Assembly (NCBI GenBank): GCA_015179125.1
Contig: WHVA01000001.1
Coordinates: 558,001-622,000 of the forward strand
DNA length: 64,000 nucleotides
Direction of reading: 5' to 3'
Source: Gautieria morchelliformis
Taxonomy: Eukaryota; Basidiomycota; Agaricomycetes; Gomphales; Gomphaceae
In this document: positions 12,292 through 60,258 of the stretch, piece after piece
Layout of the letters: every line of letters begins with the position of its first letter
How positions within the stretch are numbered: position 1 is the stretch's first letter
Program-made: the position numbers and the translations under genes
Notes under the pieces: generated by a model
The model's database searches: none
What the model was told of the DNA's origin: nothing
The model's input: the letters and a program-made list of their open reading frames with translations, nothing else

Positions 12292-13440
12292 GTGACAACA
12301 ACACACCCAGAAAACACTTGCGAGTCAGACAACAGAATGTAAACAAGTCGCTTACAGCGACCGCGGATCTACTGGCTAAGTGCCCTCCCAGCAAATACGA
12401 CATAGTGGCAATACAGGAACCGTATATCAATTTTCTTGGAAATGCTAGGGCCTCACCGCATTGGTACTCGATATACCCTGACACACACTAAAAAGACAAG
12501 ACCAAACGGACAAGATCCATGATACTCATCAACAAAGACACAATCATGAACGACTGGGCAGCAGTGGACGTAGGGACACCAGACGTCACAGCAGTCAAGA
12601 TAAAAACTGACACCGGTAACGTCTTAATATACAACATATACTGTGACTGTACCCATTCTGACAGCATAAGAGACCTACAGAAACACCTACAGAACAAAGC
12701 GAAAGGCGGCCAAGTGCAAGAAGAAGACACATGCGGGGAGATATGGTTGGGAGACTTCAATCGGCACCATCCAATGTGGGATGAGGGTCGGAATTCACAC
12801 CTGTTCACTCGCAGCAACCTAGACAAGGCGCAGGTCCTGCTAAACACCATAGCGGAGTACGACATGCAGATGGCACTCCCGAAAGAGATACCAATGCTAA
12901 GAGCCATGGAAACAGGAAACTACATGCAAACTGACGATGTTTTTATCTCCACAGAAATGCTGGAGCAGCTCATCAGCTGCAGAACAATTCCAGAAGACCA
13001 GCCAGCCAAAAGCGACCATTTCCCAGTGGACACAACAATCGACATCTCGCTCAGGAAGGTTGCGTATGTCCCCAAGTCCAACTTCAGACAGGTAGACTGG
13101 AAGGAGTTCAACAAGGAACTAGACGCACGCCTGAGAGAAAGGATCGCCGATCTGACACCAGGGAGCAGGGCGCAGCTCCAAAGAACCCTTGAGGTGCTCA
13201 CAATGGCTATCACGGAGACAGTGGAAGACTTGGTGCCCAAGACTAAGCCATCTCCCTATATGAAACGGTGGTGGTAGCTGGAGCTGACAAAAGCTAGGGC
13301 CGAAGCCAGGAGCAGGGGCAGAAAAGCATACGCCAGATGAGGCGATCTAGCAGACAGGGTGCACGAGGAGTACAGAGAGGCAAGGAATCAGTACGCAAGG
13401 AAGATAGAAAAGGCGAAGCAGGAGCATTGGGATGCGTTCC
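12288..13440 (+). pseudogene. LINE B ORF2, APE-type endonuclease and linker
   Basis: The ATG at 12288 overlaps the ORF1 stop by four bases. Endonuclease motifs are RQQNVNKSLTA, DIVAIQEPY (catalytic Glu), IWLGDFNRHHPMWD (Asp/Asn) and KSDHFPVD (catalytic His). The enzyme nicks target DNA to prime reverse transcription. In-frame stops lie at 12489-12491 (TAA where the relatives have Tyr), 13275-13277 and in the linker near 13340. A frameshift near 13445 passes to the RT frame. Confidence 0.85.
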
Positions 13441-15855
13441 TGGAGGAAGGAAGTAGACCAAAAGACTGTGTGGATGGCTCATAAGTACGCCTCAGTGGAC
13501 CCAACAGATGGAGCACGGACACGCATACCGACCCTCACTGCCAAAAGAGATGATGGGACCCGGTGGGTGGCAGACACCAATGAGCAGAAGGCTGACATGC
13601 TGTTCAGTTCCTTCTTCCCGGCGATGGGAGCAGACAGCGAAGGCATACAAAGCGACTACCAGTACCCAGAGCCGGCCTTCGACTACGCCCCGATCACAGA
13701 CGACCAAATAAGGAGGGCGGTGGAGAAACTCAACCCTTTCAAGGCCCCCGGAGCGAACAGCATCCCCAATGTGCTAATAAAACAGTGTGTTGACACGATG
13801 CTACCATACATAGGCCTGCTCTATCGAGCCACGTTCGACCTCGATGTCTACCCTGTGGAATGGAGGGACTCAGTCACGAGGGTGCTCCGGAAGCCCGGGA
13901 AGAGCGATTACACACTGCCGGGGTCATACCGCCCCATTGCACTACTGGACACAATAGGCAAGGTGCTATCCGCGTGCGTGGCCGAAGACATAGTCAAAAC
14001 GGTGGAGCGACATCATTTACTGCCGGAGAACCACTTTGGCTGCAGGCCGGGACGCTCCACGACAGACGTCATACATTACACAATCGCAACTGCTAAGGAT
14101 GCATGGAGGAAAGGTAGAGTGCTAGGTCTACTGTTTCTAGACATCAAGGGGGCAATTTCCAGCATACTACTAGACCGACTGATACATAACATGCGCCGCA
14201 GGGGAATACCGGAAGAATACACCAGATGGATACGCAGAAGAGTGGAAGGGAGAGCTACCATGGTCAGTTTTGACGACTTCAGCACCCCAGCCAGACTGGT
14301 CAGCAGAGGAATGGACCAGGGATGCCCGGTATCAGCCATCGCGTACCAGTTTTACAACGCAGACTTGCTCGAGATGATCAGACGGGCGAACGGGGAGGAC
14401 TGCATTGGATTCGTGGACGACACCACGTTGATGGCAGAGGGGGCGGACCTACAAGAGGCGTTCGAAAAGCTGAGAAAAGTCATGTGCAAACCAGGCGGAG
14501 CAGGTGAATGGGCAGAGCAACATCAGTGTACCTTTGCAGTGGACAAGTTTGGGCTTATGGGGCTCACCAGAAGGCGAGAACGAGAGCCTGGCAAGCCCAA
14601 GAAAACCAGGCAAATAACCAGGCCGTCCATAACGATAGGCCAACACATCATCAAGCCCACAGCTACCCACAAATTCCTAGGGGTCGTCATCGACCAGGAG
14701 CTGCGCTTCAGGGAGCACACCAATTATGTGCTTAAAAAAGGGGACATGTACATTGCACAGTATAGGAGGCTCGCAAAGCCGACGAAGGGCACAACAGCTA
14801 AGTACATGAGGAAATATTACCTAGCAGTCGCGATCCCAAGAATGCTCTACGCAGCTGACATATTTTTAATCCCAGACACAAAGCACAGCAAGGGGATGAA
14901 GGGAAACATCAATAAGCTTGCAAGGGTCCAGTGGCAGGCCGCGATATCTATCATGGGAGCGATGAGCATGGCAGCAAACGATGTCCTAGATGCCCATGCC
15001 AACTTACATCCGTTCCCCCTGCTGGTGGCAAAGATGGTCCATCGCACGCCAGCAAGGATAGCATGCTTGCCACCACTGCACCCGCTGGCACCAAAAGCAC
15101 GCAGAGCGGCGGCGAGATATGTCAAGAAACACCGGTCGCCACTACACGAAATGTTCCACGCGTACGAAGTGAAGCCAGACACGATGGAGAAGATACAGAC
15201 GGTCTGCTTTGGGCCAAAGTGGAAGCCGTCGTTCCAAATACGTATCCCCCAGGATAAACAACAGGCCATTGACGAGATTTTGACAGATCCAGCCGAAGTC
15301 AAAGTGTACACGGATGGCTCGTGCATAGAGGGAGGAGTAGGAGCGGCGGCAGTGCTGTACAGAGGTGGTATAGAGAAACAAGTGGTAAGGCTATACATGG
15401 GGGCCGAGCACGAGCATACCGTATTCGAGGCGGAACTGGTGGGAGCAGCGATGGGTGCCAAGCTGCTGAACACAGAAAGAGCGGCGAGATACGTGATAGC
15501 AGCTGACAACCAGGCGGCAATGCAAACCACCAGGAGGGAAAGGGCGATATCAGCGCAGTATATAGTCAACGTGCTGCACAGGCAGATCGAGGGAGTGCTG
15601 GAGCAGCAGCCGAGGGCTCAGGTGGTAATGAGGTGGGTGCCAGGGGATGAAGGAGTGGAGGGGAATGAAAGGGCAGACGAAGAGGCCAAGAGGGCAGCGA
15701 GAGGAGACTCCAGCGAGGAGCGCTTCATCCCAATCGAGTGCGGAGGTATAATGCCCAAGAGCAGGTCGGCAGAGCTACAGCACTTTCAAAAGAGCATACG
15801 AGAGGAGGCGAGGGCAGCCTTCACACGATCCCCGTGGGCCCGCATAGCACACAAG
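13432..15855 (+). pseudogene. LINE B ORF2, reverse transcriptase and RNase H
   Basis: A frame of about 800 codons without stops. RT motifs: LNPFKAPGANSIPN, YRPIALLDTIGKVLSA, HFGCRPGRSTTD, LLFLDIKGAISS, GMDQGCPVSAIAYQFYN, FVDDTTLMAE (catalytic Asp pair, about 14410-14436) and HKFLGVVIDQELRF. RNase H: YTDGSCIEGG, FEAELVGA, AADNQAA and NERADEEAK supply the Asp-Glu-Asp-Asp set (about 15305-15690). The protein copies LINE RNA at the nicked site and the RNase H removes template RNA. The open frame beyond 15855 belongs to the inserted LTR; the LINE frame resumes at 16242. Confidence 0.92.
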
Positions 15856-16236
15856 TGTTGGGTGCATTGATGCTCCTGCACCAAAATCAAGCATAATATA
15901 TCCAATTTGTTGTGTGCTTTCTCAATTTCTTCTCATTTTGTTCTTGTATCATGCATCCATTTCTCTGGTTATTTTCGAAATTTTCCACTCACTCCCTGTC
16001 TCTCCATTTCATCTTGTTATTCCTACTTTCACAAGCGGCTGCACCCAGCGGAGTCTGAAATGACTTCGACGCGCGAGCCCTTGGGCGCTAAAGAGCCGGG
16101 TAGTAGTACATGCGCAGTGAAACAGTTTCCCCCTCTCTCAGTGACAACTAAATTCACTGAGAGAGTGAATTGTTTTCTAGTCTATTCTTTTGAGCAAGAA
16201 GTTCATACCTACTGCCTATAATTCCTGTCCTCTACA
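15856..16236 (+). mobile_element. Solo LTR of the Copia-2 family in LINE B
   Basis: 381 bp, starts TGTTGGGTGCATTG and ends CTGTCCTCTACA, flanked by ACAAG (15851-15855 and 16237-16241). It matches the 5' LTR of the Copia element at 59757, but the other copies are about 115 bp longer and carry an extra internal direct repeat. Confidence 0.92.
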
Positions 16237-16630: not shown

Positions 16631-16901
16631 GAAAGAAGGGGAGTGGAGAGCAAGCTGCGCAATGCGCAAAGAACAACATCCTCGCCAACACAGGCACGGA
16701 CACGCTCGGGGCTTTGCCCGCAGAGCATAAGCGGAGATAGAGGTGGACAGGTCAGGTAGAAAAAACATGTCGACGGGCGCTGTGTAGAAACTGTCTTACA
16801 TAGGGCCTTGCCCCAAAAGACATAAAATTGGATAAAAATAAAAATAAAAATAAAAATAAAAATAAAAATAAAAATAAAAATAAAAATAAAAATAAAAATA
16901 A

Positions 16902-17554
16902 ACGGTAAACTTTGATGATCACAGTACCCCAATGATAAGGATAGGCCGTGGCATGGATCAAGAATGCCCACTGTCAGCCATCACGTACCAGTTTTATAAC
17001 ACGAGTTCACTGGAGGTGGTAAGGTGCAAGAACAGGGAGGACTGTGTAGGCTTCGTGGATGACACGACTCTGATAGCAGAGGGGGACAGCCTACAGGAAG
17101 CCTTTGATAAGCTGTCAGACATCATGACGAGGCATGGGGGCGCGATGAACTGGGCTAACAGCCATGAGTGTCATTTTGCTCTGGATAAGTTTGGACTAAT
17201 GGGATTAACCAGGCAAAGAGACAAAGACCCGACTGGAAACAGGAAGACCAGGCCAATCACAAAGCCATCCATCAGAATAGGGCAACATGTGATCTATCCA
17301 ACAACCTCACACAAGTTCCTCGGAGTAGTACTAGATCAAGAATTACGCTTCAAGGAGCATGTCAACTAGGTGCTAGCAAAAGAGGATAGATTCATCAATC
17401 AATACACGAGGCTGGCAAGGACAACGAAAGGGGTAGCTGCCAAGCACATGCAGAAATACTACCTGGTAGTGGCAGTCCCAAGGCTATTATACGCAGCTGA
17501 CATTTTCCTCGTGCCAGGCACTGCACGAAACAAAGGGACAAAAGGTCACATAAA
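16902..17554 (+). pseudogene. LINE A, part 3: reverse transcriptase
   Basis: It resumes with the duplicated ACGGTAAACTTTG and reads GMDQECPLSAITYQFYN, FVDDTTLIAE (catalytic Asp pair near 17055-17065), FGLMGLTRQRDKDP and HKFLGVVLDQELRFKEH. One TAG lies in frame at 17367-17369. It ends at ATAAA (17550-17554), the Copia-1 target site. Confidence 0.88.
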
Positions 17555-18177: not shown

Positions 18178-21100
18178 TCAAACTCGACGTATTCCTAGAA
18201 ATTCTAGGATATGGAGATGTTTGCGTGGAGATAATGGCTTTGTGAGAATGTCCGCAGGATTGTCCATCGCAGGAATATAATGTAGTTTAATGTTTCCATT
18301 GGTGATCTGTTCCTTTGTGTAATGGAAGTGAACATCAATATGTTTTGTGCGACTGTTATTGATGTTGTCTTGGGAAAATGCGATGGAGGATTGGTTGTCG
18401 GTAAATATGGTGATGGGAGCAAGGTTATGCTGAAAATCTTTTCCCATTCTTATAAGCCATATTCCTTCTGCTGATGCAAAGGATCCTGCAACCAGTTCCG
18501 ATTCCATTGATGATCGGCTCACAAGATTCTGTTTCTTTGATGCCCAAGAGATAGGGCCACCATTGAACATAAAAACCCATCCTGTGGTAGACTTCCTATC
18601 ATCCTTGTCTCCTGCGAAGTCTGCGTCTGTGAATCCTGCAAGTCCATGAGCATATCCCTTTGTGCCATCACCATGACTTGAGAATGTGATGCCAAATTCT
18701 TTTGTGTTGATTAAGTAGCGTAGAATTCGTTTGGCAGCTTCCCAGTGAGTGATATTGGGTTTGGATGCAAATTGTGCACATTTGTTGACTGCATAGGATA
18801 TGTCTGGTCGAGTGGCCACTGCACAGTAGTTGAGACTTCCAATCAATGATGAATAGGATATATCCATAATATCATTTGGATTGGTGGAGATTCTGAATTC
18901 GATGTTTGGGTCCATGGGTGAGTTTGTAGCACGTCCAGCTGTAACATCGAATCGTTTTGAAATAGAGTTGATAAAGGATGGTTGGGAAATATGAATGGTG
19001 CCCAGTTCTTGATTCCTGATGATTCGAATTCCCAAAAGCCGGCTTGGTTCACCTAGGTCTTGGATGTCAAAGCTCCCCCTCACATCTCTGATCATTTTCT
19101 CCATTGTTTCCTTGGAATTTGCAGCCATTAATCCATCATCCACATACCAGCCCACTACAGCCACCTCTCCTTTGTCTCCAAACCTGAAAAACATTGTTTG
19201 ATCTGCTTCCCCTGCCTTGAACCCCATCTTCTCTAATTCCTTCCTCAAAGTATTGTGCCACACTCTTCCTGATTGTTTCAACCCATAGATCCCCTTGTTT
19301 AACTTGCAGACAAGATGTTCCTCTCCTGACTTGATAAAACCCTCTGGTTGGCGCATATACACAGTGTCCTCAAGTTTGCCATTGAGATATGCGCCCTTTA
19401 CATCCACATGGCGCAGTTCAAGGTTGTACTTGCAACCTAATGCAAGAATGAGTCGAATTGAGGTTAATCTGATAGTGGGGGAGAATGTTTCTTGATAATC
19501 GATGCCTGGAACTTGTGAAAAGCCTTGTGCCACTAGTCTTGATTTGAAATTGTTTATATCGCCTATATTGTCTCGTTTGACTCTGAAAACCCAACGGCAT
19601 CCTATAATATTCGTGTTCGGAGGACATTCGACCAGGGTCCAGGTATAGTAACCTGTGAGTGTGTCGTATTCCACCTCGCATGATTTCCTCCACTGTGATG
19701 CATTTTCCGAGCTCATAGCCTCCTTGTAGTTGCTTGGTTCATCCTCTGCAAGAGTCACGAATGCTGCTTCCACCTCCTCAAGTTCCTTCCTCCCATGCGC
19801 CATAGCAATCATCTCTTTCATCAGTGCTGCGTGTCTCCTTCCTCTTCCATACTCCACATTTGATGGATCCATCCATGGACCTTTGGAAAAATCCTTTGGA
19901 GCGATTTCTTCTTCAATTTCTTCTTCTTCTGCTTCTCTGTCTTCTTCCTCTGTTCTCAGCTCCACTCCTTCGATCTCTTCCTCATGCTCTATCTTCTTCT
20001 CCTCCTCTTCGACTTGTTGTAATATTCCAGTAGTATCAGTCCTGTCAACGAATGGTAATTCTTCATCATACTGCCATTCCTGTACAGGCCTCGGCTCCTC
20101 AGGCTGGAAAATAACAGGGAGTCTGGATTCACGTTGCCAGAGTGTAGGTGTGTCGTCTGCATCAGTTCCATGAATAGAGACTCGTTCTATGTGATTCAGC
20201 TCATCAAAGACAACGTCCCTGGACTTCAGCAGTGTATGTGTGCGTGGAACCCAGACCTTGTAAGCCTTGGAATTGTCGAAATATCCAACAAATATTCCTT
20301 CCACTGACTTGTAATCTCCCTTTCTCCTTGTTGCTTTAGGAATCAAGGCCCAGCACTTGGAGCCATAAGTGCGAAGCCAATTCACCTTTGGTTTTACTAG
20401 CCAGAAGGCCTCATAAGGTGATTTGTTGATCCTATGATGCAAAATTCGATTTTTGACAAAATTGACCGTGTGCACTCCAGAGACCCAAAATCGATTCGAG
20501 AGTCCAGCATCATGCTGAAGGGTCAATGCTCCTTCTTGAAGGGTCCTGTTGTATCTTTCAGCAATGGCATTATGCTCTGGAGTATAGGGAGAAGTGGTTT
20601 GATGAGCGATTCCAAGGTCTTTGCATAACTTTTGAAATTCCTTCCCCATATATTCTCCTCCATTATCTGTCCTCACTCTCCTCACATCCTCTCCTTTCTG
20701 CTTCTTCAACCATGCAATATATCCCTTGAATGAATTGGTAACAGTGGCACATTCCTTGTTCTTCAAGAAATCAATACTGACATAGCGAGTTTTGTGATCA
20801 ATCCAGGTCACAAAATATCGAAAGCCATTGATGGAGACGTCGAATGGACCACAAAGGTCAGAGGAAATGATATCTCCAATTTTCTCTGGTAATTCTTCTG
20901 TACTTTTGAAAGGTGCGCGTGTTTGCTTGCCAAAGGGACAATGTGAGCATTGGCTCATGTACTGGTCCTCCTCCACATCAGGGAGTCCATCAACTGTTTG
21001 CAACCTCGACATAGTCTCCAGTGTTGATGGCGCGGCATGTGCAAGCCTATGATGCCAAAGTGTAAGCTCACTTGGCTCACCAGAATATTCCACAGTCTCT

Positions 21101-21864
21101 ACAGGGTATTGAACTGATGTTGCCATATATGCGAATAAATTGTTGATTTTTGTTCCTTTTGCAACAATTTCCCCATTATAGAGCAGTGAAGTGTCCCCTC
21201 GACTGAAAACCACATCTACATTTGCTGTTGTCATCCTCCCAACAGAAAGTAGATTGGCATCGAGTTTTGGGACAAAAATGACATTTTGCAATGTCAACTC
21301 CAAGGGTGGTAGGTTCATAGACTCATCACTTTGAAGTGTGATGCGAATTGTCCCCTTTTGACTAGCCTCGAAGGCCTCACCACTTGCAGTCTCGACCAAT
21401 ATAGTAGGAGTCGAGTGAATTTCATCAAAGAGTTCCAATCTGCCGCATATATGACTTGATGCTGCAGAGTCCACCAACCACATATGAGACCTGTCTTGTA
21501 TGGCTGATAGAGCTGATGTTTTTGTGGATAAAACAACACTCTTGGATTGGTCTTCTTCTTGTTCAGAGATATATGCCATCATAACAATATTCTTTGTCGA
21601 TGCATTGGCAAATCTTGATGATGGCACTGAAGAATTATTTGAAGAATTGTTGGCTCCTGCAGGCACAGTTTGATGCATCTGTGAGGCAACTGTTGGAGAG
21701 TTCCAAACAGGAGCTGATCGATTGCCACTTCCTCCCGGCCAAATACCCCCTCTTCCACCTCTTGCAACACTTGCTCCTCGACCCCTGCCTCCCCATGGGT
21801 CTTGTCCTGCCAGCCCCCTCCTGGTGCGAAACATCTTGAAGCTGAATGACCCTCCTTTCCACAA
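18178..21864 (-). CDS. pol: Copia-1 pol polyprotein (protease, integrase, RT, RNase H)
   Basis: 1228 codons. Domains in order: aspartic protease with LVDSAASSHICG, GAG-pre-integrase with WHHRLAHAAPSTL and a CPFGKQ zinc motif, integrase core with DLCGPFD, RTDNGGEY and PEHNAIAERYNRTL, an acidic low-complexity linker, RT with CRWVFRVKRD, VDVKGAYLNG and GWYVDDGLMAA, and RNase H with TDADFAGDKDDRKSTTG and SRSSMESEL. The order PR-IN-RT-RH defines Ty1/Copia. Its protein matures virus-like particles, copies the RNA and inserts the cDNA. It lies in a frame overlapping gag. Confidence 0.97.
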   Translation of the reverse strand: MWKGGSFSFKMFRTRRGLAGQDPWGGRGRGASVARGGRGGIWPGGSGNRSAPVWNSPTVASQMHQTVPAGANNSSNNSSVPSSRFANASTKNIVMMAYISEQEEDQSKSVVLSTKTSALSAIQDRSHMWLVDSAASSHICGRLELFDEIHSTPTILVETASGEAFEASQKGTIRITLQSDESMNLPPLELTLQNVIFVPKLDANLLSVGRMTTANVDVVFSRGDTSLLYNGEIVAKGTKINNLFAYMATSVQYPVETVEYSGEPSELTLWHHRLAHAAPSTLETMSRLQTVDGLPDVEEDQYMSQCSHCPFGKQTRAPFKSTEELPEKIGDIISSDLCGPFDVSINGFRYFVTWIDHKTRYVSIDFLKNKECATVTNSFKGYIAWLKKQKGEDVRRVRTDNGGEYMGKEFQKLCKDLGIAHQTTSPYTPEHNAIAERYNRTLQEGALTLQHDAGLSNRFWVSGVHTVNFVKNRILHHRINKSPYEAFWLVKPKVNWLRTYGSKCWALIPKATRRKGDYKSVEGIFVGYFDNSKAYKVWVPRTHTLLKSRDVVFDELNHIERVSIHGTDADDTPTLWQRESRLPVIFQPEEPRPVQEWQYDEELPFVDRTDTTGILQQVEEEEKKIEHEEEIEGVELRTEEEDREAEEEEIEEEIAPKDFSKGPWMDPSNVEYGRGRRHAALMKEMIAMAHGRKELEEVEAAFVTLAEDEPSNYKEAMSSENASQWRKSCEVEYDTLTGYYTWTLVECPPNTNIIGCRWVFRVKRDNIGDINNFKSRLVAQGFSQVPGIDYQETFSPTIRLTSIRLILALGCKYNLELRHVDVKGAYLNGKLEDTVYMRQPEGFIKSGEEHLVCKLNKGIYGLKQSGRVWHNTLRKELEKMGFKAGEADQTMFFRFGDKGEVAVVGWYVDDGLMAANSKETMEKMIRDVRGSFDIQDLGEPSRLLGIRIIRNQELGTIHISQPSFINSISKRFDVTAGRATNSPMDPNIEFRISTNPNDIMDISYSSLIGSLNYCAVATRPDISYAVNKCAQFASKPNITHWEAAKRILRYLINTKEFGITFSSHGDGTKGYAHGLAGFTDADFAGDKDDRKSTTGWVFMFNGGPISWASKKQNLVSRSSMESELVAGSFASAEGIWLIRMGKDFQHNLAPITIFTDNQSSIAFSQDNINNSRTKHIDVHFHYTKEQITNGNIKLHYIPAMDNPADILTKPLSPRKHLHILEFLGIRRV

Positions 21865-23313: not shown

Positions 23314-24623
23314 ATAAACAAATTGGCTCGAGCCCAACAGCAGGCCGCACTCTTCATCACTGGTGCCATGAGGACCACAGCTAATGACACCCTAGACGTG
23401 CATGCTAACCTCCTCCCTCCCCTTTCCCCTCCTGGTCACCAAGATAGTCCACAGAGCGGCTGTTCGGATGGCTTGTCTACCAGACAAGCACCCACTCACT
23501 AATAGGGTCCAGAAGTCAGCAAACAGGTACATGAAGAAGCATAGAACCCCCCTCCACGAAGTGATGCACGCCTTTGGCCTGCAACCCGACCGGATGGAGA
23601 AGATACACCCAGTCGTCCACAGCCCAAAATGGGAGCCGTCCTTCAAGGTCAAAATCCTGCTCAACAAAGAGCGGGCCATAGAAGAGGTCGAGAGAGATAC
23701 GGCAGAAGTTAAGGTCTTTACGGACGGCTCATGCGTCGAGGGAGGACTGGGAGCTGCAGCAGTATTGTACCATGGAGGTGTGGAAAGACAAGCGGTGAGG
23801 CTATATCTTGGCACAGAGAGGGAGCACACTCTCTTCAAGGCAGAACTCGTTGGGGCGGCGCTGGGAGCAAAACTGCTCAATATGGAAAGAGGGAGGCGGT
23901 ACCTCATAGCAGTGGATAATCAGGCTGCGATCCAAACAACAAGAAGGGAGAAACAAATGTTGGGACAACACCTGCTGAATGCACTGCACAGGCAAATAGA
24001 TGGGGTGGTCCAGCAGCAGCTAGGGCCCAAGGTCATGATGAGGTGGGTACCAGGCCACGAGGGGGTAGCAGGTAATGAGCGCACAGACGAGGAAGGGAAG
24101 AAAGCAGTGGCGGGATCAAGTCCCCGTGGGCTAACATAGCGCACAAAATTGACCCATTGATGCCTTCAACAGCCTTCATGAAGCTCACAGCTCTTCATGA
24201 AGCTCACAGCTGATATGCCCCGCAGACATGCGACGCTGCTCGTACAGCTTAGAACCGGCCACGCGCCGCTGAACAGGCACTTAGCAAAGATAGGCAAGGA
24301 GGGATCGCCCATGTGCCCAGCGTGCAAAGCGGCAGATGAAATAGTCCATCATTACCTCTTTAGGTGCCCAAGTTACTGCAGGTAGAGAGAGGAACGGGAG
24401 AGAGAGCTGCGCAGAGGAGCAAGGTCGGCGAGGACGCTTCTGACAAGGCCGAAAGCAGCTGTTCAAGTACATACACAAAACAGGGCGGTTCAAGAAGACA
24501 TACGGGGATCTATATCTACCAAGAGGGGATGCTCATGGAGAGGAGAGGGTAGAACAGGGAAGAGAAGCTAACGCTAGTCATACAATATCCCCGCCCACAC
24601 AGGCACGGACACGCCCTGGGCCT
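23314..24623 (+). pseudogene. LINE A, part 4: end of RT, RNase H, C-terminal knuckle
   Basis: It reads INKLARAQQQAALFITGAMR, then after a frameshift near 23415 LLVTKIVHRAAVRMACLP, and RNase H with FTDGSCVEGGLGAAAV, LFKAELVGAALGAK, VDNQAAIQTTRR and NERTDEEGK (about 23720-24100). A deletion near 24117 removes part of the segment after RNase H. The zinc-knuckle tail (SPMCPACKAADEIV) follows. The copy ends near 24623 without the 3' UTR end and tail that the left arm has. Confidence 0.88.
23983..24623 (+). repeat. Inverted-repeat arm, right (partner 8957-9581)
   Basis: Nearly identical inverse copy of 8957-9581, with an extra 19-bp tandem duplication (CTTCATGAAGCTCACAG repeated, about 24176-24212). 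Confidence 0.85.
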
Positions 24624-25639
24624 TACTGGCAGTATACACCATTCTAACAACCCGATGAAGTGTCTGCCTCTGAAATCCCAGTCTCGTAAGTATTCCACTC
24701 CGTTTCAAGTGGTATTCCCATGCTTTTCTCGAACTGCGCCTTGCTGGTTTACCGTGGTCTGCACGTGCCTTAGGGTCTATCCCAGCGACATTCTTCATGA
24801 TTTTTTTGACTTTCGAGTTGGTTCTGACGCCGGCTGCTCCCTAGCTAGGATCATCTTCCCCAGTGCGGATACTTGCAGGCTAAGGCCAGCTGTAGAATTT
24901 CTCGAGCAAGGCAAGCCGGGTTCTTAGTTGACACCTTGATGTCCTGGTTGCGCCAGTGGGAGGCGATGACGCCCTATCTGGCCACAATGGCTTCAAGATC
25001 AGTCGTCGGTGCGGAGCCTACGGAAGCGGGAGCAGACGATGCTTTTCGATCTTCCACAAGAGGGACATTCCACCCGTCTGTGAACCCGAAGACGCTAGCA
25101 GACGAGCTGCTGACCTCGAGATGCGAAATTATGTTCCCGCTCATCATGGAGCATGTGGATGCCAGCTATACACAGTCACCGGTGAACAAATTGTGTAAGC
25201 CGCTCACCAAAGCTGAGTGTCATTCGTTGCGAATGCGCCAGTGATTGACCATTTGGCGGCCGTCGCTCTCTCAATCGCTCTATCAGAAGGTTTCGAGGAA
25301 CGTACGCAAAAGAAGGCAAGCACTCACGAAAGACTCTAAAGAGTACACGTCCGTATCATTTGTGAGCGGGGACATCGCCGATCTAGGAAGCGACGCTTCG
25401 AAGCTCTTTGAGATGATCTCCGCTGATACCTCGGATAATGAGGATGGTTTGTCTTGCCTTACTCGGAGGAGCCAGTTACCTACCTCTGAATATCCTAATT
25501 ATAGGGGATTGATGGATTGGGGCATGTGGTATGTCCTCAACACGTTTTGAATTCGTCTCCGATGTCTTCGCCCCCGATACAATCGTATTTGTCCCCGATA
25601 GCCAAGCGATGTATTACAGCTGAACAACCACACCGGAAT
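24624..25639. other. No gene recognised
   Basis: Two overlapping plus-strand frames (24873-25244, 25245-25550) show no known motif and no convincing intron signals. Their residue composition (for example DIADLGSDASKLFEMISADTS) is protein-like, so a decayed host gene is possible. Confidence 0.4.
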
Positions 25640-27401
25640 CCCAGACTTGACAAAAGACAGACCCCCAATAGCACAAGCTAGACCAAAGCAAACCGCAAAA
25701 CAAAACAAAAAAAAAAACAGAATAATTTACAAAATTTACAAAACACACTGCAGGGTGACATCGAATTCTCTTCGAGGAGTTTTCTGGATTTCCCATACGA
25801 GAGAAATCCGTATATCCACTCGCAGTCACAACTCGGACGTTGCAGGACTATACGCGGGTGAACTGGGTTGTCAGGATGGTTGGGATAATCCCCTACAAGA
25901 CCTATGATTGCGTGCTGCCGATTGCAGATTGCAGTTGCTGTCACTTGACAACAGTGGCGCCTCAGGTTTGAAGGCTAATTCGGCATGCTAGACATCAGAG
26001 CATGTAAGTAACCATAGACAGCGCCGACAAGCAGATCCGTCATCACGTACCTAGTCGTTCTGACCAGCCTCTCTGCCACAGGGGGCTCCGCAACTGGCGC
26101 CTCTGATTGCGCGGGCTAAACATCAAAGCACGTAAGTAACCATAGACAGCACCGACAAGCAGGTCCGTCATCCCGTGCCTAGTCGTTCTGACCAGCCTCC
26201 CACAGGGGCCTCCGCAGCTGGCGCCTCTGATTACGCGGGCTAAACATCAAAGCACGTAAGTAACCATAGACAGCGCCGACAAGGAGATCCGTCATCACGT
26301 ACCTAGTCGTTCCGACCAGCCTCCCACAGGGGCCTCCGCAGCTGGCGCCTCTGATTGCGCGGGCTAAACATCTAAGCACGTAAGTAACCATAGACAGCAC
26401 CGACAAGCAGATCCGTCATCACGCACCTGGTCGTTCTGACCAGCCTCTGCCACAGGGGCCTCCGCAACTGGCGCCTCTGATTGCGCGGGCTAAACATCAG
26501 AGCCCGTAAGTAACCATAGGCAGCGCCGACAAGGAGATCCGTCATTACGTACCTAGTCGTTCTGACCAGGCTCCCACAGGGGCCTCCGCAACTGGCGCCT
26601 CTGATTGCGCGGGCTAAACATCAAAGCACGTAAGTAACCATAGACAGCACCGACAGGCAGATCCGTCATCACGTACCTGGTCGTTCCGACCAGCCTCCCA
26701 CAGGGGCCTCTGCAACTGGCGCCTCTGATTGCGCGGGCTAAACATCAGAGCACGTAAGTAACCATAGACAGCACCGACAAGGAGATCCGTCATCACGTAC
26801 CTCGTCGTTCTGACCAGGCTCCCACAGGGGCCTCCGCAGCTGGCGCCTCTGATTGCGCGGGCTAAACATGAGAACCCGTAAGTAACCATAGGCAGCGCCG
26901 ACAAGCAGATCCGTCATCACGTACCTGGTCGTTCTGGCCAGGCTCCCACAGGGGCCTCCGCAACTGGCGCCTCTGATTGCGCGGGCTAAACATCAGAGCA
27001 CGTAAGTAACCATAGACAGCACCGACAAGGAGATCCGTCATCACGTACCTCGTCGTTCTGACCAGGCTCCCACAGGGGCCTCCGCAGCTGGCGCCTCTGA
27101 TTGCGCGGGCTAAACATGAGAACCCGTAAGTAACCATAGGCAGCGCCGACAAGCAGATCCGTCATCACGTACCTGGTCGTTCTGACCAGCCTCTGCCACA
27201 GCGGGATCTCCAACTGGCCCCTGTGTCACACAGGACAAGACACCACGTTACACACCCCCGATAGTACAACACCAAAACAAACCGCAAAACAGAACAAAAA
27301 ACGAAATTTACAAAAAACACCTGCAGGGTGCCGTCCACGGCTTTTGCTTGTGTACCGCCGATTACAGTCCCTGTCACTTGACGACAGTAGTGCGCGAGCA
27401 T
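25640..27401 (-). pseudogene. Cassette gene P2: array of near-identical mini-exons, probably decayed
   Basis: Model on the minus strand: first exon 27321-27401 (MLAHYCRQVTGTVIGG..., 27 codons), 100-bp intron, 48-bp exon 27173-27220, then nine repeated exons at 27049-27109, 26925-26985, 26801-26861, 26677-26737, 26553-26613, 26427-26489, 26303-26363, 26179-26239 and 26051-26115, and a last exon starting at 25987. All nine introns after the repeated units plus the one before them are 63 bp, mostly GTACGT...TTTAG with TTACTTACG as branch region. The 63-bp exon encodes PAQSEAPVAEAP and GQNDQ; seven 61-bp copies lack two bases and change frame. Read straight through, the frame ends at TAG closing 26303-26363. 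Function unknown; related to P1. Confidence 0.6.
26051..27172 (-). repeat. Tandem array, 124-bp unit, nine copies
   Basis: Exon-length steps are 124 bp five times and then 126, 124, 124 and 128; copies look more than 90% identical by eye. Each unit contains GTACGT (donor), TTACTTACG and TTTAG (acceptor) in the minus orientation. Confidence 0.93.
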
Positions 27402-27568: not shown

Positions 27569-30136
27569 TCAACAATACGCCTGAAAAACTGTTATGCCGT
27601 TGCAAGGTCCATAACACGAGACCGTGTGGTTGGGTTGCGACTCTGGGGTCATGTCCGTCATTGGGACATCCTCGTCATCGACTTCCATGCGATCGGCGTC
27701 GTCCTCGTCGTCGTCCTCATCAGCGGAAGACAAGGAGGAATGGGAGGAACCTTCCCAGTCGACGTCCATCGGACCGCCTTCTTCACCCTGCTCAGTCGGG
27801 GGGGCGTGCAGCTCTCCTGAGACCGCCGTGGTCACGTCGTTGCCGACCACCAAAGGCTCTGCAACGGCGGTCTGGTCGTGCAGTGAGAGCTTTTCGAATA
27901 GGGCGCACAAGGCGGCAACATCGAAGTCCACGTCCATCGCATCGCCTTTATCCTGCGCAGTCAGGGGGGCGTCTAACTGTCCTGAGACCGCCGTGGCCAC
28001 GTCGTTGCTGGCCCCCAAAGGTTCTACAACGGCGGTCTGGTTGGCTTCCCAGGGGTGTTCCACTAGGGCCGACAAGGACCCGGCACCTCGAGGAGAGTGC
28101 CGCGTCGCCTCAGCTTTTGAGGCAACTTCCACGTGCTAGACATCAGAGAACGTGAGTAATGGTACACAGCGGGAACAAGCAGATCCGTAGACAGGGAGGA
28201 GCCGATGTGCTCTTTCGAGCGACTACTCCATTCCTGGCCCGTATGGGTATAGTGGGGAAAAGAATTGCCTACCTGGGCGTTCAGAAGCCCACCCTTGAAC
28301 TTTCCTTCCCCTTCCCTCTCGAGAGGGTCCAAGCCCTTGCCTTCGTCAGGCTGGGACGATGCTCCGGCTGACCTGGCGCGGTCTGTGCCTTCCGTCATGT
28401 CGGCCCCCAAGAGCTTTTTCTTGACGTCGCCATCTGTCTTGTGGCGCGGCGGGGCGGGCTAGAGAACAGAGCACGTAAGCAATCGTACCCCGCAGCCACA
28501 CGCAGATCCGTAAACAGAGAGGAGCCGATGTCCTCTTTCGAGCGACGACTGGCTCGTATGCATATAGTGGGGAAAAGCATTGCGTACCTGAGCGTTCACA
28601 GGCCCATCCTTGAACTTTCCTTGACCCCGCTTCTCGACAGGATCGAGGGCCTTGCCTTCGTCAGGCTTGGACGATGCTCCGGCTGACCTGGCGCGGTCTG
28701 TGCCTTCCGTCATGTCGCCCCCCAAGAGCTTTTTCTTGACGTCGCCATCTGTCTTGTGGCGGGTCGGGGCGGGCTAGAGAACAGAGCACGTAAGCAATCG
28801 TACCCCGCAGCCACACGCGGATCCGTAAACAGAGAGGAGCCGATGTCCTCTTTCGAGCGACGACTGGCCCATATGCATATAGTGGGGAAAAGCATTGCGT
28901 ACCTGAGCGTTCACAAGCCCATCCTTGAACTTTCCTTGACCCCGCTTCTCGACAGGATCGAGGGCCTTGCCTTCGTCAGGCTTGGACGATGCTCCGGCTG
29001 ACCTGGCGCGGTCTGTGCCTTCCGTCATGTCGCCCCCCAAGAGCTTTTTCTTGACGTCGCCATCTGTCTTGTGGCGGGGCGGCGTGGGCTAGAGAACAGA
29101 GCACGTAAGCAATCGTACCCCGCAGCCACACGCAGATCCGTAAACAGAGAGGAGCCGATGTCCTCTTTGGAGCGACGACTGGCTGGTATGCATATAGTGG
29201 GGAAAAGCATTGCGTACCTGAGCGTTCACAAGCCCATCCTTGAATGTTCCGGGACCCTCCCTCTCGAGAGGATTGACGGTCTGGCCTTCGTCAGGTTTCG
29301 GCGATGCTCCGGCTAACTTAGCGGGGTCCGTTTCCTCCGTCTCCATGTCTGAAGCGCCCGCCCAGATCTCTTTCTTGGTGTCGGTTGGCACGGTAGGGCC
29401 TGTTTGTTGGGGCGAGTCGATGTGATCGCGCGTCCTACGTGGCGCCTGATGCGAGTGTTGTGGCCTTGACGGGTGCTGACGGCTGTCATACGAACATGTG
29501 AGCTGAGGTAAATCTCCATAAAGAAACACCGTACTGGGCATGCCCCGATGAGTGCCCTATTCCCTGGGGTCCTTGACCTTTCTTAGAAGGGTTTTCACGT
29601 CTGGCCGAGGCGCTGCCTGAAATAGATGATGCTATGTTAGCTTCGACCCAACGGTCCCCCAATGACGACTTACCAGGCGGCGTTCGGGAAATCGATGCTG
29701 AAGCCTCCTTAGACACAGCCGAGACCTTCTCTGCGGATTTTGAGGACGACGCCACAGGCTGCTAATAGGGTGCCATCAGGAAAATCATTGTCTTTGACCA
29801 TCACAAGTATGCACATACCTGTCCAGTCTGATTGTCGTGATTGAGAGACTCCGGAAGTGAAGTTTGTGTGTTCTGAGAGAAAGTTCAGATGAGGTGATGT
29901 GCGGTGGCAGTGGCGGCGGGTGGCATGGACGAAGGCGATATGGAAAAGGACTGTAACTGACCGTCATCGTGTTGGGGACGTCCGAAGCTCCTGGGACAGA
30001 TGGTGTCGGGGATTGCTGAATGTGTTGATCAAGGTGAGAATGGTAAGACTGGCGTAAGTGATCGCGGGGTCCTTACAGTGGGGCTAGCTAAGAGTCGGCT
30101 GGGGATCAGACCACGTGTGCCTCCCACAGCGCGCAT
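27569..30136 (-). CDS. Cassette gene P1: ten-exon gene with repeated 186-bp exons, function unknown
   Basis: Exons (minus): 30077-30136, 29962-30015, 29819-29872, 29674-29758, 29535-29616, 29218-29482, 28903-29088, 28588-28773, 28273-28458, 27569-28135. The sum is 1725 bp, 574 residues plus stop, with phase kept at every junction. Introns 1-5 are 52-89 bp (GTAAGG, GTCAGT, GTATGT, GTAAGT and GTACGG donors; intron 4 has a perfect GCTAAC branch); introns 6-8 are 129 bp each. Three exons encode a 62-residue module (MTEGTDRARSAGASS, KPDEGKALDP, GKFKDGLVNAQ); exon 6 holds a diverged fourth copy. The C-terminus is acidic (SSADEDDDEDDADRMEVDD) with MDVDF/MDVDW motifs. Low complexity, no membrane segment seen. 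No family recognised; a nuclear scaffold-like role would be a guess. Confidence 0.75.
28273..29217 (-). repeat. Tandem exon-intron repeat, exact 315-bp unit, three copies plus a diverged fourth exon
   Basis: Donor-to-donor spacing is 28273, 28588, 28903, 29218: exactly 315 each (186-bp exon, 129-bp intron). Introns start GTACGCAATGC or GTAGGC and end CTCTAG, with TTGCTTACGTGC upstream. Confidence 0.93.
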
Positions 30137-31867
30137 GGTGTGTCTGGGGCCTTGGGTAGTATTCTTCATTTTGAGGACCGGATGGACGAGGTTGGATGTG
30201 GTGGTAGGAAAAAGAAAGGCGGGCCGCTCGGGAATCCCCGGGCTGGCTTTTATACATAGGCGTTCTACCTCATTCGAACGCTACCCATTGATTATATAAC
30301 GCGCGCTAGAGAAGGTTACGGCAATCAACTACGAAAAACGATTACACTCCGCTTTGGGGCTCCGCTTTGGGACACAATCTTTGATTCCGCGGCGATCCTT
30401 CTCTAACGCCTAATCTTCTCCTTATCACTAATGTAAGCCACACTGAATAGAATTAAACTGACCTGGCAAGATATGCACGGTCATGAGGCGCCAACTAATT
30501 GCAGCGTAACTGAGTACCAGTTGGTGCACCTGATTCGGTATATATTCCCTAATCGGACCGAGAGAAAACGGTAGCATCGAGTAGGATTGGGGCGGGACGC
30601 ACTTCTCCATAGGTACTAGTTTAGAGTATATGGTCAGCCATACTTTCAGAGGGCCGTGACAGTACTGCTGAAATCGCAAGGACGTGGACTCCGGCTGCTC
30701 TGGTCTTGGACCCAAGTGCCGAGGAAAACGGACTTACGGTACCTCGGCGACATCGATGATCGATCGTCGCTCGATAAGGCTCTCGGCGCCCATGCACAGC
30801 CCATCGCCACATAAGGACACCATTATCTCTGCCTCGAATGTCCAGGTCGTGTCTTTAGTGCAAGGATGGCATACGCGATGGCATTGAACGTATATCCCGT
30901 TGCTGCGGCTTGGCCAAGGCAATATTACATAATTCCTTGGCTCGGCTTCCAGCCGGCGTGTGGAGCCGCCGTTGAAAATTGCAAACAGGACTGTAATTGA
31001 CCATTATTTGAAGGTATCGTTTCCATATGGGGTTTGGCTGACATGTGTTGATATGGGCATGGGAGGGTACCCACGGTGGAGCGATAGTACCGGAGGCTCC
31101 TGGCAGGCCGGAGCCGAGATGTGTTGGGAGATGTACGAAGCTGTATCCATGCAGTATTGTACAGAACTAAGCGAGGTGACAAGCCAAAATGATTGTCTCA
31201 GCCTTGAAACTATCATCCCACGCGGCACCAAACTCTAATTGCATGATTGGCCCAGCACAGCGACTTGAGGCTAGGCTCCGGGCCGGGCCGTAGGTATGCA
31301 ACGCCCTAAAGGAAGCTCCGAACTTCGCTCGGCTTTCGGCAGGCGTAATACAAAGGGGTCCGAGTACCGCCGTTACTTGAAAGGGTGTCGGCTGACGCGC
31401 ATGAACTGTAAGTTAATAACGGCGTTCTCTAAGTAGCTGATCCATCTAGCGCGTCTCCAGGGTCAGCCTGAGGTGCAGCCATCGTTCAACTTCTTAATTT
31501 TCTACTACATTAGGGCAGCTACTATATCCTGTAGAATAAGTCCACCATATAGCAAGCATTCAGCGTTTCGAGCAAGTACTAATTGATCTCTGTAAGTATA
31601 CCTGAGTGCGCATAGTCTAGTGAACAGTCTGCATAACAGTAATCGGGTTTCTCGATAACCACTGTCACCGCATATGCACGTACTTAGGCGAAACGCACTG
31701 CTGATGCAAAGGAGCGGTATAGATGATTAAAGTCATGAAGCACTGCACAGCGTGTAATTTATATCGTCTAGGCCTTTCCCATATCCCACTCTCTCACCGC
31801 ACCTTTCTTTGTATATTCAATCGCAATAATTCCCTTCCCGTCCTCGGCCGACGCACTCACTATCCCT
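30137..31867. other. No gene recognised; probable P1 promoter side
   Basis: Short frames only, with no motifs. The first few hundred bases should contain the P1 promoter; no TATA or CCAAT box is convincing. Composition is mixed and not obviously transposon-derived. Confidence 0.4.
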
Positions 31868-32170: not shown

Positions 32171-33300
32171 TCAGCGTCTTCTCTCCCTGCGCTGTCTGCC
32201 GCTTTTTCTTTTCCCCTCGTCCTCTTTCACCGGTGGTAGTGCAACGCTTCCATACTGGTTTTCGAATCGCTTCGTGTCCTGTATATACCCGAATAGATGC
32301 TCTAGTGCCTTGTGCCCTCTCAATAGTGTTTTTGCGGATTTTGCGCCCCTCCTCAGCTTTTTCTCCAGTTTCTCCCTCTGCTTCTTGTACGCCTTGCACT
32401 GGAACAGAAAGTGGTGTACTGTCTCCTGTGCGCTCCTGCACGCCGGGCACAGAGGCGACTCTGCCTTTCCTATCTTATGTAGATATTTGTTCAGTGGTAC
32501 GTGTCCCGTCCTCAACTGCACGAGTAGGCTGGCTTGCTTGCGCGGCATGTTCTTCGTGATTTTCGCAAATACTGCTGATGGCATGGTTGGGTCAATCTCG
32601 TGTGCGCGCATAGCTCTGGGTGACTTAGCGAAAATTTCTCTCGCTCTCTGCTTCAGGTTGGTGTTGTGCCTCTGGATTTCCGCTGCTCTGCTTGTTGGCA
32701 TCGTGCCCCGGCACTTGATCGGTATGTCTCTTTCTTCACTGCTTTCCCCCTTTGCCGCTCTCTTCGCCTCCTCGTCCGCTCTCTCATTCCCCGCTATTCC
32801 TTCGTGTCCCGGTACCCATCTCATGACGACCTTGACCCCTGGTTGCTGTTGTACTACGCTTTGGATTTGTTTGTGGACTGCGTTGACAAGGTATTGGCCG
32901 GGGATTGCACGTTCCCTCCTGGTTGTCTGTATGGCTGCTTGGTTGTCCAGGGCTATCGTATACTTCCCTCCCGCTCTGTGCTCAGCATCTTTGCTGCCAA
33001 AGCTGCGCCCACTAACTCCGCTTCGAATACGGTATGCTCGCTCACTGTGCCCATGTGCAGTCTGGCCGTCCTGCACTCCCTTCCGTTTCTGTACATCACG
33101 GCGGCTGCCCCTACTCCGCCCTCTATGCACGACCTGTCTGTGTACACCACCACCCCTGTTCCTTCTGCCTCTATTTCTTCCTTGGCTTTCTCTTTGGTCG
33201 ACGGGATCCTCGTGCTGAACGCCGGAGCCCATTTGGGTCCGAGTACCACCGTGTGGATTTTTTCCATCGCGTCCGGGTTTATCTTGAACGCGTGCATCAT
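32171..33300 (-). pseudogene. LINE D ORF2: RNase H and C-terminal knuckle
   Basis: YTDRSCIEGGVGAAAV (Asp; Gly of the usual DGS is Arg), FEAELVGAALAAK, then after a frameshift near 32975 IALDNQAAIQTTRR and NERADEEAKRAA, and the zinc knuckle SPLCPACRSAQETVHHFLFQC. It ends in a basic tail. A single-base shift near 33300 separates it from the RT frame. Confidence 0.88.
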
Positions 33301-34961
33301 CTCATGTAGGGGGATCTATGTCTCTTGACGTACCTCTTTGCCGCTTTCCTTATTTTCCCTGCTAGCGGGTGTTCCTGAGGCAAGCACGCTAGGCGTACTG
33401 CGGCTCTGTGTATTGTCTTGGTCACTAGCAGCGGAAATGGCAAGAGGTTGGCGTGTGCGTCGAGTGTGTCGGTGGCTGTGGTCCTGAGCGCGCCTGTAAT
33501 GTCTATCGCAACTTGTCTCTGGATCCTGGCCAGCTTGTTCACGAAGCCCTTGGTGCCTTTGGTTCTGCTCGTTGCTGGTGTGAGGAATACGTCAGCGGCA
33601 TACAACATTCTCGGTATCGCGACTGCTAGGTAGTATGTTCGCATGTACTTAGCTAGTATTCCCTTTGTTGGTTTCACTAGCCTTTTGTACTGTCCAACGT
33701 ATGCTTCCCCTTTTTTTAGAGTGTAGTTGACATGCTCTTTGAACCTCAGTTCCTGGTCCATCATCACCCCCAGGAATTTGTGTGTCACCACGGGCCACAC
33801 TTCGTGTCTCCCTATCTTTATGGGTGGTCTCGTCGTCGGCCTGGTTTTTCTCGGCTTCGCTGGGTCTTTCTCTCTCCTTCTGGTGAGCCCCATTAAACCA
33901 AACTTCTCCACCGCGAATTGGCACTGGTGTTGCTCCGCCCATTCATACGCTCCCCCGGGCCTTTCCATCATGTCTGTTAACTTTCTAAAGGCCTCCGGCA
34001 AGTCTTTCCCTTCCGCTGTTAGGGTTGTGTCATCGACGAAACCCACACAGCCTTCCCCTCTCTTGATCTGCACGATGTCTATCAGGTCTGCATTGTAGAA
34101 CTGATAGGCGATCGCCGAGAGGGGACAGCCCTGGTCCATGCCTCGTTCTATGGGCCTGGTCGCTGACGTGTAGTCGTCCAGGCTGATGACTGTGAGTCGG
34201 TTCTGGACCTTCCTGCGTATCCAGTCTGTGTACTCACGTGGTACTCCTCTCCTGCGCATGTTATGGGTCAGTCTTTCCAGTACGATACTGGGGAAAGCCC
34301 CCTTTATGTCCAGGTATAGCACCCCCAGTACTCTCCCTCTCCTCCAAGCGTCCTTTGCCTGTCCTACCACGAAGTGTATGGCATCGGTCGTTGTCCTGCC
34401 TGGCCTACATCCGAAGTGATTGTCGGGTAATAATCGGTGCTTTTCTGCCATTTTCACAATGTCTTCCGCTACGCACACTGATAACACTTTGCCTATCGTG
34501 TCGAGCAAAGCAATCGGCCTGTATGCACCTGGGGCTGTGTAATCTGCTTTCCCCGGCTTTCGCAGGACTTTTGTGATGGAGTCCCTCCATACGGCTGGGT
34601 ACACTTCGAGGTCGAATGTTGCTCGGAAGAGAGGACCTATGTAGGGTAAGAGCACGTTAATGCACTGCTTTATAAGTTCGTTTGGGATACCGTTTTCCCC
34701 TGGTGCTTTGAACCTGTTGAGCCTGTCTACCGCTCTCCGTATCTGCCCATCGGTAATTGGCTGATACTCGAATGCCGGTGTCGGGTACTCGTAGTCTGTT
34801 GGGATTTGCTCTGACGCTTCATTTGCTCTGGGGAAAAATGTGTCGAAGAGCATTTCTGTCTTCTGTTCGTTCGTTTCCGCTACCTCTCTCGTGCCGTTCC
34901 CCCTTTGTGCTACCATTGTCGGCGCCCTCGCCAGCCCTCCGTCTGATGCCCGCTGATGCAT
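33297..34961 (-). pseudogene. LINE D ORF2: reverse transcriptase
   Basis: About 554 open codons: LNRFKAPGENGIPNELIKQC, YRPIALLDTIGKVLSVC, HFGCRPGRTTTDAIH, LYLDIKGAFPSIVLERL, GMDQGCPLSAIAYQFYN, FVDDTTLTAE and HKFLGVMMDQELRFKEH. All RT palm motifs are present, so this part could encode an intact RT fold although the ORF is broken on both sides. Confidence 0.92.
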
Positions 34962-36156
34962 ACCTGTGTGCCGTCCACACCGTTTTCTGGTCGATGTTCG
35001 TGAGGAAATCGGCCCAGTGCTCCTTTTTCGATTCAGCTATCGCCTCGGCGTAGCTGTTCCTGGCCTGTCTGTGCTCTATGTGTGAAGGGTGTGTTGGGTC
35101 GTTCCTTGCTGCGTAGGCTCTTCTCCCCAGTCGCCTCCTTTCCTTTCTCTTCTGTGTCAGCTGCAGCGACCACCAGTGCTTGACGTATGGCGAGGGCCTG
35201 CTCCTCGGTATCAGCTCCTCTGTGGTGTCCTGAATCGCTGTGAAGAGCGCTTCTAGGCGAGAGTGAAACTGCGTCTGATTTTTCGGGGTAGGATCTTCTA
35301 TCAGCTGTTCTAGCCTTGTTTCCAGCGCTTTGTTGTACGCTTTCCAGTCCACCTGTCTGTAGTTGTGTTTCGGGCTGTGTGTGGTGGCTTCGACTGTAAG
35401 GTCTATTCTGGTATCTATGGGATAATGATTGCTTTTCGGCGGTCATTCTTCTGGTACTGTCGTGCAAGTGATTAGCCTCTCTATCAGCAGATTTGATGCG
35501 AACACATTATCTGTTCTGGTATGATTCCCCGTGGCCATCGCTTTGAGTGTCGGTATTCCCTTGGGCAGCGCCATGTGCATATTGTGTTCCACCATGGCAT
35601 CCAAGAGTGCCTGTGCCTCGTCGAGGTTTGCCCTGGTAAACAGATGCGAATTGCGGAGCTCGTCCCACAGGGGATGGTGTCTGTTGAAGTCCCCTAGCCA
35701 CAGCATTCCCTCTGTTTCCCGTCCCTGTGTATCTCCTTCCGCCGCTTTTTCTTGTATGTGCTTATGCACCGCCCTGATGCTGTCTGATCGCGTGCAGTCT
35801 TCATATATATTGTAGATTAGAATGTTACCAGTGTCTGTCTTTATCCTTATTGCCGTGACGTCTGGTGATCCGACGTTCATTGCCCCCCATGCGCTCATTG
35901 CTATCTTTTTGTTTATTAATATCATCGACCTTGTTCTTGCCCCTCTGTTCTGGTAGTGTGTTTCCGGGTATACTGAGTACCAGCTATGCGTAGCTCTAGA
36001 GTTTCCCAGGAAGTCAACGTATGGTTCCTGTATAGCAAGAATATCATAATGATCAGGCGAGCACTTAGCTAGCATTTCCGCCGTTGCCGTGAGTGACTTG
36101 TTTACATTTTGTTGTCTGATTCTCAAATTGTAGATTCGTTGGTTGTTTCTACTCAT
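34962..36156 (-). pseudogene. LINE D ORF2: APE endonuclease and linker
   Basis: The ATG at 36156 overlaps the ORF1 stop (ATGAGTAG). Motifs: IRQQNVNKSLTATAEML, DILAIQEPYVDFLG, MLWLGDFNRHHPLWD and KSNHYPID. A TGA at about 35443 interrupts the domain between VPEE and PPKSNHYP, exactly where LINE E also has TGA. A frameshift near 34950 leads into RT. Confidence 0.88.
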
Positions 36157-40365: not shown

Positions 40366-40446
40366 CACTGCTTCTCTCATTGCTGCTTCTCTCATTGCTG
40401 CTTCTCTCATTGCTGCTTCTCTCATTGCTGCTTCTCTCATCACTGC
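40366..40446 (+). repeat. 15-bp tandem repeat, about five copies
   Basis: CATTGCTGCTTCTCT repeated head to tail with no differences in the central copies. A minisatellite; no coding role evident. Confidence 0.95.
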
Positions 40447-41439
40447 AATTATCTCCACTGCTCTTCATGTATTCCCAGTGCTTGTCTCTTACTCGTCATG
40501 TTCGTGTCTCCCTGCATCATATTCCACGCTCGTCTGTTACTTTTACATGTATTTCTGAATGGCATTTCAGTACTATGATGCACTGATTTATCAGTATTTT
40601 ACAACTGCAAAAAAGGCTGAATTTCAGTGTGAAATGTTTCTGAAAAGACCATTCTCTCTACTAGATTTCGGGGTTGCGCAAATCTACCGGTGCACTTAAA
40701 TTCAGGTCCGCAAGCACTTAAAATCGGTACTTTCTGCACTGATATATCGGTGCATAATGTACTTAAGTTAAGTGCCCAATCTTCCTGCAGTGCAGAGTGT
40801 GGACTGCGGTAACATGCGCCAACGCAGGCATGAGGCCCCTGCGCAAACGGTCAAATAATTTTATGCCCTTTTGCTGGCTGGTTGCATGCAACCTCAGTGA
40901 ACATTACAGGATTGAACATAGAGATATCACTATTAATTTTCCGGTCACATTATGTACCAGATCAGCTAGGCCGTCCTTAAATGTTCTATGACGTAGTGTG
41001 ATTAAGAGCGTCGAGGCTATGACTGCTGATACTGCTGAGTATTACTGTAGGCATCTCTCACTTGGAGCAAATCTGATGATGCCAGCAGCACAGGTTAAGT
41101 TATATTAGGGCGCGTTCGGTAACCAGACCACGAAAATCTGATCTGGAGAAGTTACAAAATGTGCAGCTCAGACATTACCTGATCTTTTTTTTGCGTGAGA
41201 TCAGTATCGAACTGAGCCGAATGCTCTGTGGTTTTCTGCAATCTCAAAATTGTAACTTCCGCTGTGACTAAGTAACGTTATTCTGCTGAATTTACCGCGT
41301 TTGCATGGTAAATTTAGGTTCGGTGCAAGCCTTGAAGCTCCGACTTCATTTCCAGAGGAGAGGCTTGTACCAAGATGCCGCGCTAGGGGGACCGTCTCCT
41401 CACGGTGCTGCGTCGGCCACAACACCTCTCACGTCAAGG
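40447..41439. other. No gene recognised
   Basis: AT-rich sequence with scattered short frames. TTAGGGCGCGTTCGGTAACC at about 41105 resembles the terminus of a small non-autonomous DNA transposon, but no matching far end was found. Confidence 0.4.
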
Positions 41440-60253: not shown

Positions 60254-60258
60254 GGGTT

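Follow-up and report, generated by a model that had tools for sequence, protein, structure and literature searches.

The array described here (array 2) is probably a 5'-truncated duplicate of a neighboring repeated-exon gene (gene 1), in which a unit consisting of exon and intron has turned into a minisatellite. Judged from the nucleotide sequence, the 124-bp unit carries one complete small predicted exon and one complete 63-bp intron of the spliceosomal type. The duplicate is probably decaying, and we most likely see a decaying, truncated copy located beside a better-kept sister gene, whose own repeated exons are called array 1 in the following. All positions refer to the window, which is the whole stretch of 64,000 bp from Gautieria morchelliformis that was analyzed. 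The features are compiled in Table 1.

Table 1. Features of the two arrays, their flanks and the surrounding mobile elements (positions within the window)
Feature	Position	Strand	Description
Gene 1 model	27569..30169	minus	10 exons, 586 codons plus stop; ATG 30169, stop 27569; holds array 1
Array 1	28136..29217	minus	Three exons of 186 bp (62 codons, in frame) and introns of 129, 129, 129 and 137 bp
Array 2	25988..27220	minus	Partial exon E0 (27220-27173), ten 63-bp introns, nine exons of 61-65 bp
Two-unit block	26925..27172	minus	Near-identical copy next to it at 26924-26677
Full-length unit exon	26427..26489	minus	Sole 63-bp (21-codon) unit exon of array 2; encodes PAQSEAPVAEAPVAEAGQNDQ
Intron with deviating donor	26116..26178	minus	63 bp; donor GCACGG (at 26178) in place of GTACGT
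Tail exon of array 2	25874..25987	minus	HAELAFKPEAPLLSSDSNC..., 38 codons, then stop; start homologous to the array 1 tail exon
Left flank	27250..27393	minus	Diverged copy of the 3' region found behind array 2
Right flank	25657..25960	minus	Other copy of that 3' region
Mobile-element ORFs: a Helitron-like N-terminal domain, two reverse transcriptases of the RVT_1 type (one with RNase H), two Copia-type polyproteins (RVT_2)	1-1008; 13408-15870; 18178-21864; 33297-35036; 60211-63999		

Ten donors and ten acceptors on the minus strand delimit the introns of array 2, and every one of these introns is 63 bp long. The nine internal exons have, in their order, lengths of 61, 61, 61, 61, 61, 63, 61, 61 and 65 bp (seven times 61 bp). 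An independent analysis using Tandem Repeats Finder revealed a period of 124 with 9.7 copies, 91% matches and a score of 1996 at 25987-27193; for the same region the overlapping periods 374 and 498 reached slightly higher scores (2077 and 2080). Both results agree with a preliminary description of this DNA, which had reported mini-exons of 61-65 bp separated by introns of exactly 63 bp on the minus strand. The nine units counted there correspond to the nine internal exons, but ten introns and the further partial exon E0 have to be added; likewise, the interval 25987-27401 assigned to the array is filled by the array up to 27220, but the part from about 27401 to 27221 is mostly duplicated flank. 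Alignment of the exons confirmed that a single one has the in-frame length of 63 bp and that the same 2 bp are absent from seven of the nine (GTGG--GAG versus GTGGCAGAG), while the 65-bp exon, the ninth, has 2 bp extra. The length is not divisible by three in eight of the nine exons and divisible in one. The repeat unit includes an exon flanked by an acceptor and a donor of its own, as expected for a tandem exon duplication, with GC at one of the donors. Minisatellites consist of short, highly alike units arranged head to tail with recent turnover, and array 2 shows these properties as well.

All ten introns of array 2 contain the motif CTTAC at position 43 and end with TAG, and nine of the ten start with a donor of the type GTRNGT. 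The earlier statement that donor, branch region and acceptor are present in every unit is thus correct for CTTAC and TAG, but one donor deviates (GCACGG). The preservation of these signals (9/10 and 10/10) counts against decay, as a long-dead array need not keep them. In 2000 dinucleotide shuffles of one unit the strict intron pattern GTACGT...CTNAY...TAG appeared in 0.4% of the cases and a looser pattern in 9.4%; on the opposite strand the real doubled unit was compared with the looser pattern, which matched once. The frequency of the loose matches would be in line with a plain minisatellite without gene ancestry, in which the splice-like signals are accidental, and the high homogeneity and the amplification of two units at a time are typical of minisatellites. 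We regard this explanation as very unlikely, because the strict pattern is rare in the shuffles and because the homology disfavors it: the boundaries match those of array 1, which has open reading frames.

Array 1 is a repeat on the minus strand with a period of 315 and 3.8 copies (28135-29328) and is located about 0.9 kb upstream of array 2. All three 186-bp exons are divisible by three and each of them is open in a single frame; the four array introns of the gene 1 model are all in phase 0. The 5' part of the modeled gene is one of 350 open paths, so the details of its 5' end are uncertain; the array and the tail of 188 codons are independent of the path that was chosen. Comparison of the three pairs of 186-bp exons yielded dN/dS values of about 0.95, 0.5 and 0.7, which is weak constraint on the exons of array 1. 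Both this weak constraint and the many open 5' paths count against the favored reading. Three pieces of gene 1 were scanned with Pfam (the tail, one of the 186-bp exons, and the exon preceding the array together with part of the sequence upstream of it), and none of them matched a family at an E-value of 0.01. The tail exon of gene 1 contains an internal duplication (27757-27876 and 27925-28041, 83%) and acidic stretches of the MDVD type. The length of all 63-bp introns (10/10, 25988-27172) and of all 129-bp introns (3/3, 28459-29217) is divisible by three, and the in-phase reading of these introns has the terminal TAG as its sole stop. The length of the 137-bp intron of array 1 is not divisible by three.

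Several alignments connect the two arrays. Over the last intron and the beginning of the tail exon, 28106-28188 and 25958-26040 are 78% identical (E 5e-13), and the starts of the tail exons can be aligned column by column (HVEVASKAEA versus HAELAFKPEA). The 3' halves of the introns of array 1 and array 2 share 76-78% identity over 57-60 bp in several matches. According to the alignment of a 63-bp intron with the 137-bp intron, about 74 bp following the donor are absent from the shorter one. The exon-intron boundaries of array 2 recur in array 1, its coding paralogue, and this is again the pattern of a tandem exon duplication. The preliminary description, which in large part agrees with our data on the units themselves, did not mention the neighboring 315-bp array, the paralogy or the duplicated flanks.

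These flanks are direct repeats of one 3' region with array 2 between them, and two pairs of segments match, 25657-25757 with 27250-27330 (72%, E 3e-9) and 25924-25960 with 27357-27393 (81%). The duplication junction is located between 27250, where the flank homology ends, and 27225, where the homology of E0 begins; locally, the flank homology stops 24 bp before the homology of E0 to the unit. E0 aligns from position 11 of the unit onwards (87% over 53 bp; E 8e-15, with four short sequences searched), and its apparent acceptor CACAG therefore sits on the former exon sequence CAGAG. The true acceptor and the first 10 bp of this exon are lost at the junction. Since E0 is truncated at this point, array 2 represents a duplicate without a 5' end of its own. 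The array begins 348 bp past the modeled stop of gene 1 on the same strand (27569 to E0 at 27220). Transcription past 27569 could in principle turn array 2 into distal alternative 3' exons or a spliced 3' UTR of gene 1, and besides the common strand and this distance the 3' region repeated on both sides of array 2 is consistent with such an arrangement. We consider it unlikely, as the apparent acceptor of E0 is former exon sequence and the copied 3' region in between would be expected to hold the 3' end of gene 1 itself.

The reading frames of array 2 were analyzed with and without splicing. The unspliced array has many stops in all three frames. Within the exons the stops observed were a TAA in exon 8 and terminal TAGs in exons 5, 7, 8 and 9; the frames are otherwise open, in agreement with the earlier claim that the three frames of a unit are mostly open. 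In the spliced reading that begins with E0, every 61-bp exon rotates the frame, and the reading ends after 158 aa at a stop that forms the final codon of exon 7. The first stops for the three entry frames are located in exons 7, 8 and 5; each entry frame is about equally open, so the expected one does not stand out. The nine exons comprise 555 nt in total, which is divisible by three, and the tail exon is therefore back in frame, but for the stops. Among the 512 combinations of included and skipped exons the tail exon is in frame in 172 and additionally free of stops in 10. Selection for a frame-divisible array of 555 nt was considered and rejected, because the chance of divisibility is about one in three; selection for openness of all frames was rejected because of the similar openness of the entry frames.

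A working mini-exon gene would make use of this rotation: array 2 would be transcribed and spliced fully or partly, and the number of copies or the skipping of exons would set the C-terminus. The open frame from E0 to exon 7 fits this idea, as does the sum of three units, which is 183 nt or 61 codons, and the splice signals are kept apart from one donor. The similar openness of the three entry frames may, however, reflect base composition, few combinations lead to a stop-free in-frame tail, and E0 is without its original acceptor. Transcripts with a stop codon upstream of introns are likely targets of NMD, and the stop in exon 7 is followed by further introns. A functional gene of this kind is improbable in our view; a reading of the mini-exon array of the preliminary description as a working gene is not supported in view of the GC donor, the truncated E0, the stop in exon 7 and the position past the stop of gene 1.

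To follow the turnover of the units we compared them with each other. Whole units are pairwise 89-100% alike, and two of them, units 1 and 3 (each exon taken with the intron after it), are identical. An exact run of 225 bp, starting at 27184-26960, is repeated at an offset of 248 bp, corresponding to two units. The identity of units 1 and 3 and this run indicate that blocks of two units were copied recently. Variable positions amounted to 8 of 61 exon columns (four indel columns excluded) and 16 of 63 intron columns (Fisher p 0.11); the mean pairwise difference of 0.051 in the exons versus 0.078 in the introns shows that the exons are somewhat less variable, which counts against a decaying duplicate. 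Within the introns 3 of 14 splice-critical and 13 of 49 other columns were variable (p 1.0). In these column-variability tests no constraint on exons or splice sites beyond that on the remaining sequence was detected, and their power is low because array 2 is young. The identical units, the 225-bp run and both p values support the earlier conclusion that the shifted unit was amplified without visible selection on the protein. Its assignment to unequal crossing over rather than selection stands insofar as selection was not seen, but crossing over, gene conversion and replication slippage are inseparable in array 2. Short reads assemble near-identical 124-bp units poorly, and the copy number could accordingly be an artefact of a collapsed or inflated repeat. 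The 24 aligned columns that differ among the units (8 exon, 16 intron) and the regular order of introns and exons argue against this explanation, which is extremely unlikely.

Taken together, we favor the truncated duplicate, and the preservation of the frame in array 1 (3/3 exons) compared with its loss in array 2 (8/9) was counted in support of it. The 3' half of gene 1 would have been duplicated in tandem without the 5' end, and array 2 would have arisen inside this duplicate. The in-frame 63-bp exon of one unit may have lost 2 bp, and the shifted unit may have spread by recombination between the copies, one or two units at a time. This spread was presumably free because nothing ties a duplicate lacking its 5' end to a reading frame. 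According to the predicted signals, splicing of the units of array 2 is possible. If there is any read-through transcription from gene 1, most of the introns could still be spliced out; with each spliced copy the product would gain one exon of 61 nt and the frame would shift by one, and the product starting from E0 would stop in exon 7. In a functional form of such a spliced minisatellite one DNA unit would be read successively in all three frames within one protein, and the gain or loss of a unit would switch the downstream frame, comparable to a phase switch by copy number that acts via splicing. This role is very unlikely.

Under the truncated-duplicate reading the locus apparently displays the same process at two stages in adjacent sequences, a gene with frame-kept 186-bp exons and its truncated sister, freed from the frame and expanded. 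It would furthermore represent a tenfold multiplication of an intron by ordinary minisatellite turnover, without intron transposition. The locus also provides a test case for the question whether a spliceosome processes ten near-identical introns in series.

The surrounding DNA contains mobile elements, as all five of the retroelement or Helitron-like ORFs scanned matched Pfam families. Retroelements and a Helitron-like protein around the array fit a fast-changing, transposon-rich region. The transposons, together with the donor type and the short introns, point to a fungal genome, probably that of a basidiomycete. An inverted copy (24000-24626 versus 8948-9555, 96% identity) is probably a retroelement fragment according to the neighboring frames, and Tandem Repeats Finder detected further repeats at 47561-47700 (45 bp x 3.1), 40366-40462 (15/45 bp) and 16832-16902 ((ATAAAA)n). 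A scan of 24-32 kb with Rfam gave nothing at the gathering threshold. Relatives were searched in viral contigs and prokaryote genomes, and negative results from these collections say little for eukaryotes. In the viral contigs the intron pattern had 0 matches and one 62-aa exon of array 1 had 8 pattern matches, none of them confirmed; in the prokaryote genomes none of 593 pattern matches to the 188-aa tail of gene 1 was confirmed.

Alternative exon copies of the Dscam type are diverged. Adjacent exon copies with introns are common to the Dscam-type exclusive choice of exons (PMC1397879, PMC9013439) and array 2, but those exons are alternatively chosen, whereas the units of array 2 are 89-100% alike and selection was not seen. 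The gain of introns by tandem genomic duplication resembles array 2 in that tandem duplication multiplies introns; in the process described there, however, a duplicated AGGT makes a new intron from exon sequence, whereas array 2 copies an existing intron together with its exon (PMC3443670). Effector genes of the SP7 type were rejected as a match: a conserved intron precedes the first repeat, and in the available part of the source an intron per repeat is not described (PMC11333574). Among the matches listed from the open-licence literature there was no fungal array of this kind, although one may well have been published elsewhere.

The closest precedents found are the repeated-exon genes of schistosomes. 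The polymorphic mucin genes SmPoMuc of Schistosoma mansoni share with array 2 the tandem repetition of exon plus intron, and their family includes a truncated gene and probable pseudogenes; unequal crossing-over is discussed there, and the authors favor gene conversion for homogenisation (PMC2576457). In SmPoMuc a 27-bp exon lies in a unit of about 1 kb and transcripts are known (PMC2576457), whereas the unit of array 2 is fungal and is 124 bp long, with an exon of mostly 61 bp, a length not divisible by three. The micro-exon genes (MEGs) of schistosomes also have many very short exons in series, some of them repeated, and a 1988 report had tandemly repeated 81-base exons in its title (as cited in PMC10526429). 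As presented in this source, MEGs carry an N-terminal signal peptide, and their exons are mostly multiples of three and lie among long introns, whereas eight of nine exons in array 2 are not multiples of three and the introns have 63 bp (PMC10526429). The intact 5' end of a schistosome-type micro-exon or SmPoMuc gene is missing in array 2, where E0 is cut at the duplication junction. Exons in multiples of three, as in MEGs and SmPoMuc, are the exception in array 2 (1/9) and the rule in array 1 (3/3). The structure is real and unusual, and it is kin to the known tandem repeats of exon plus intron.
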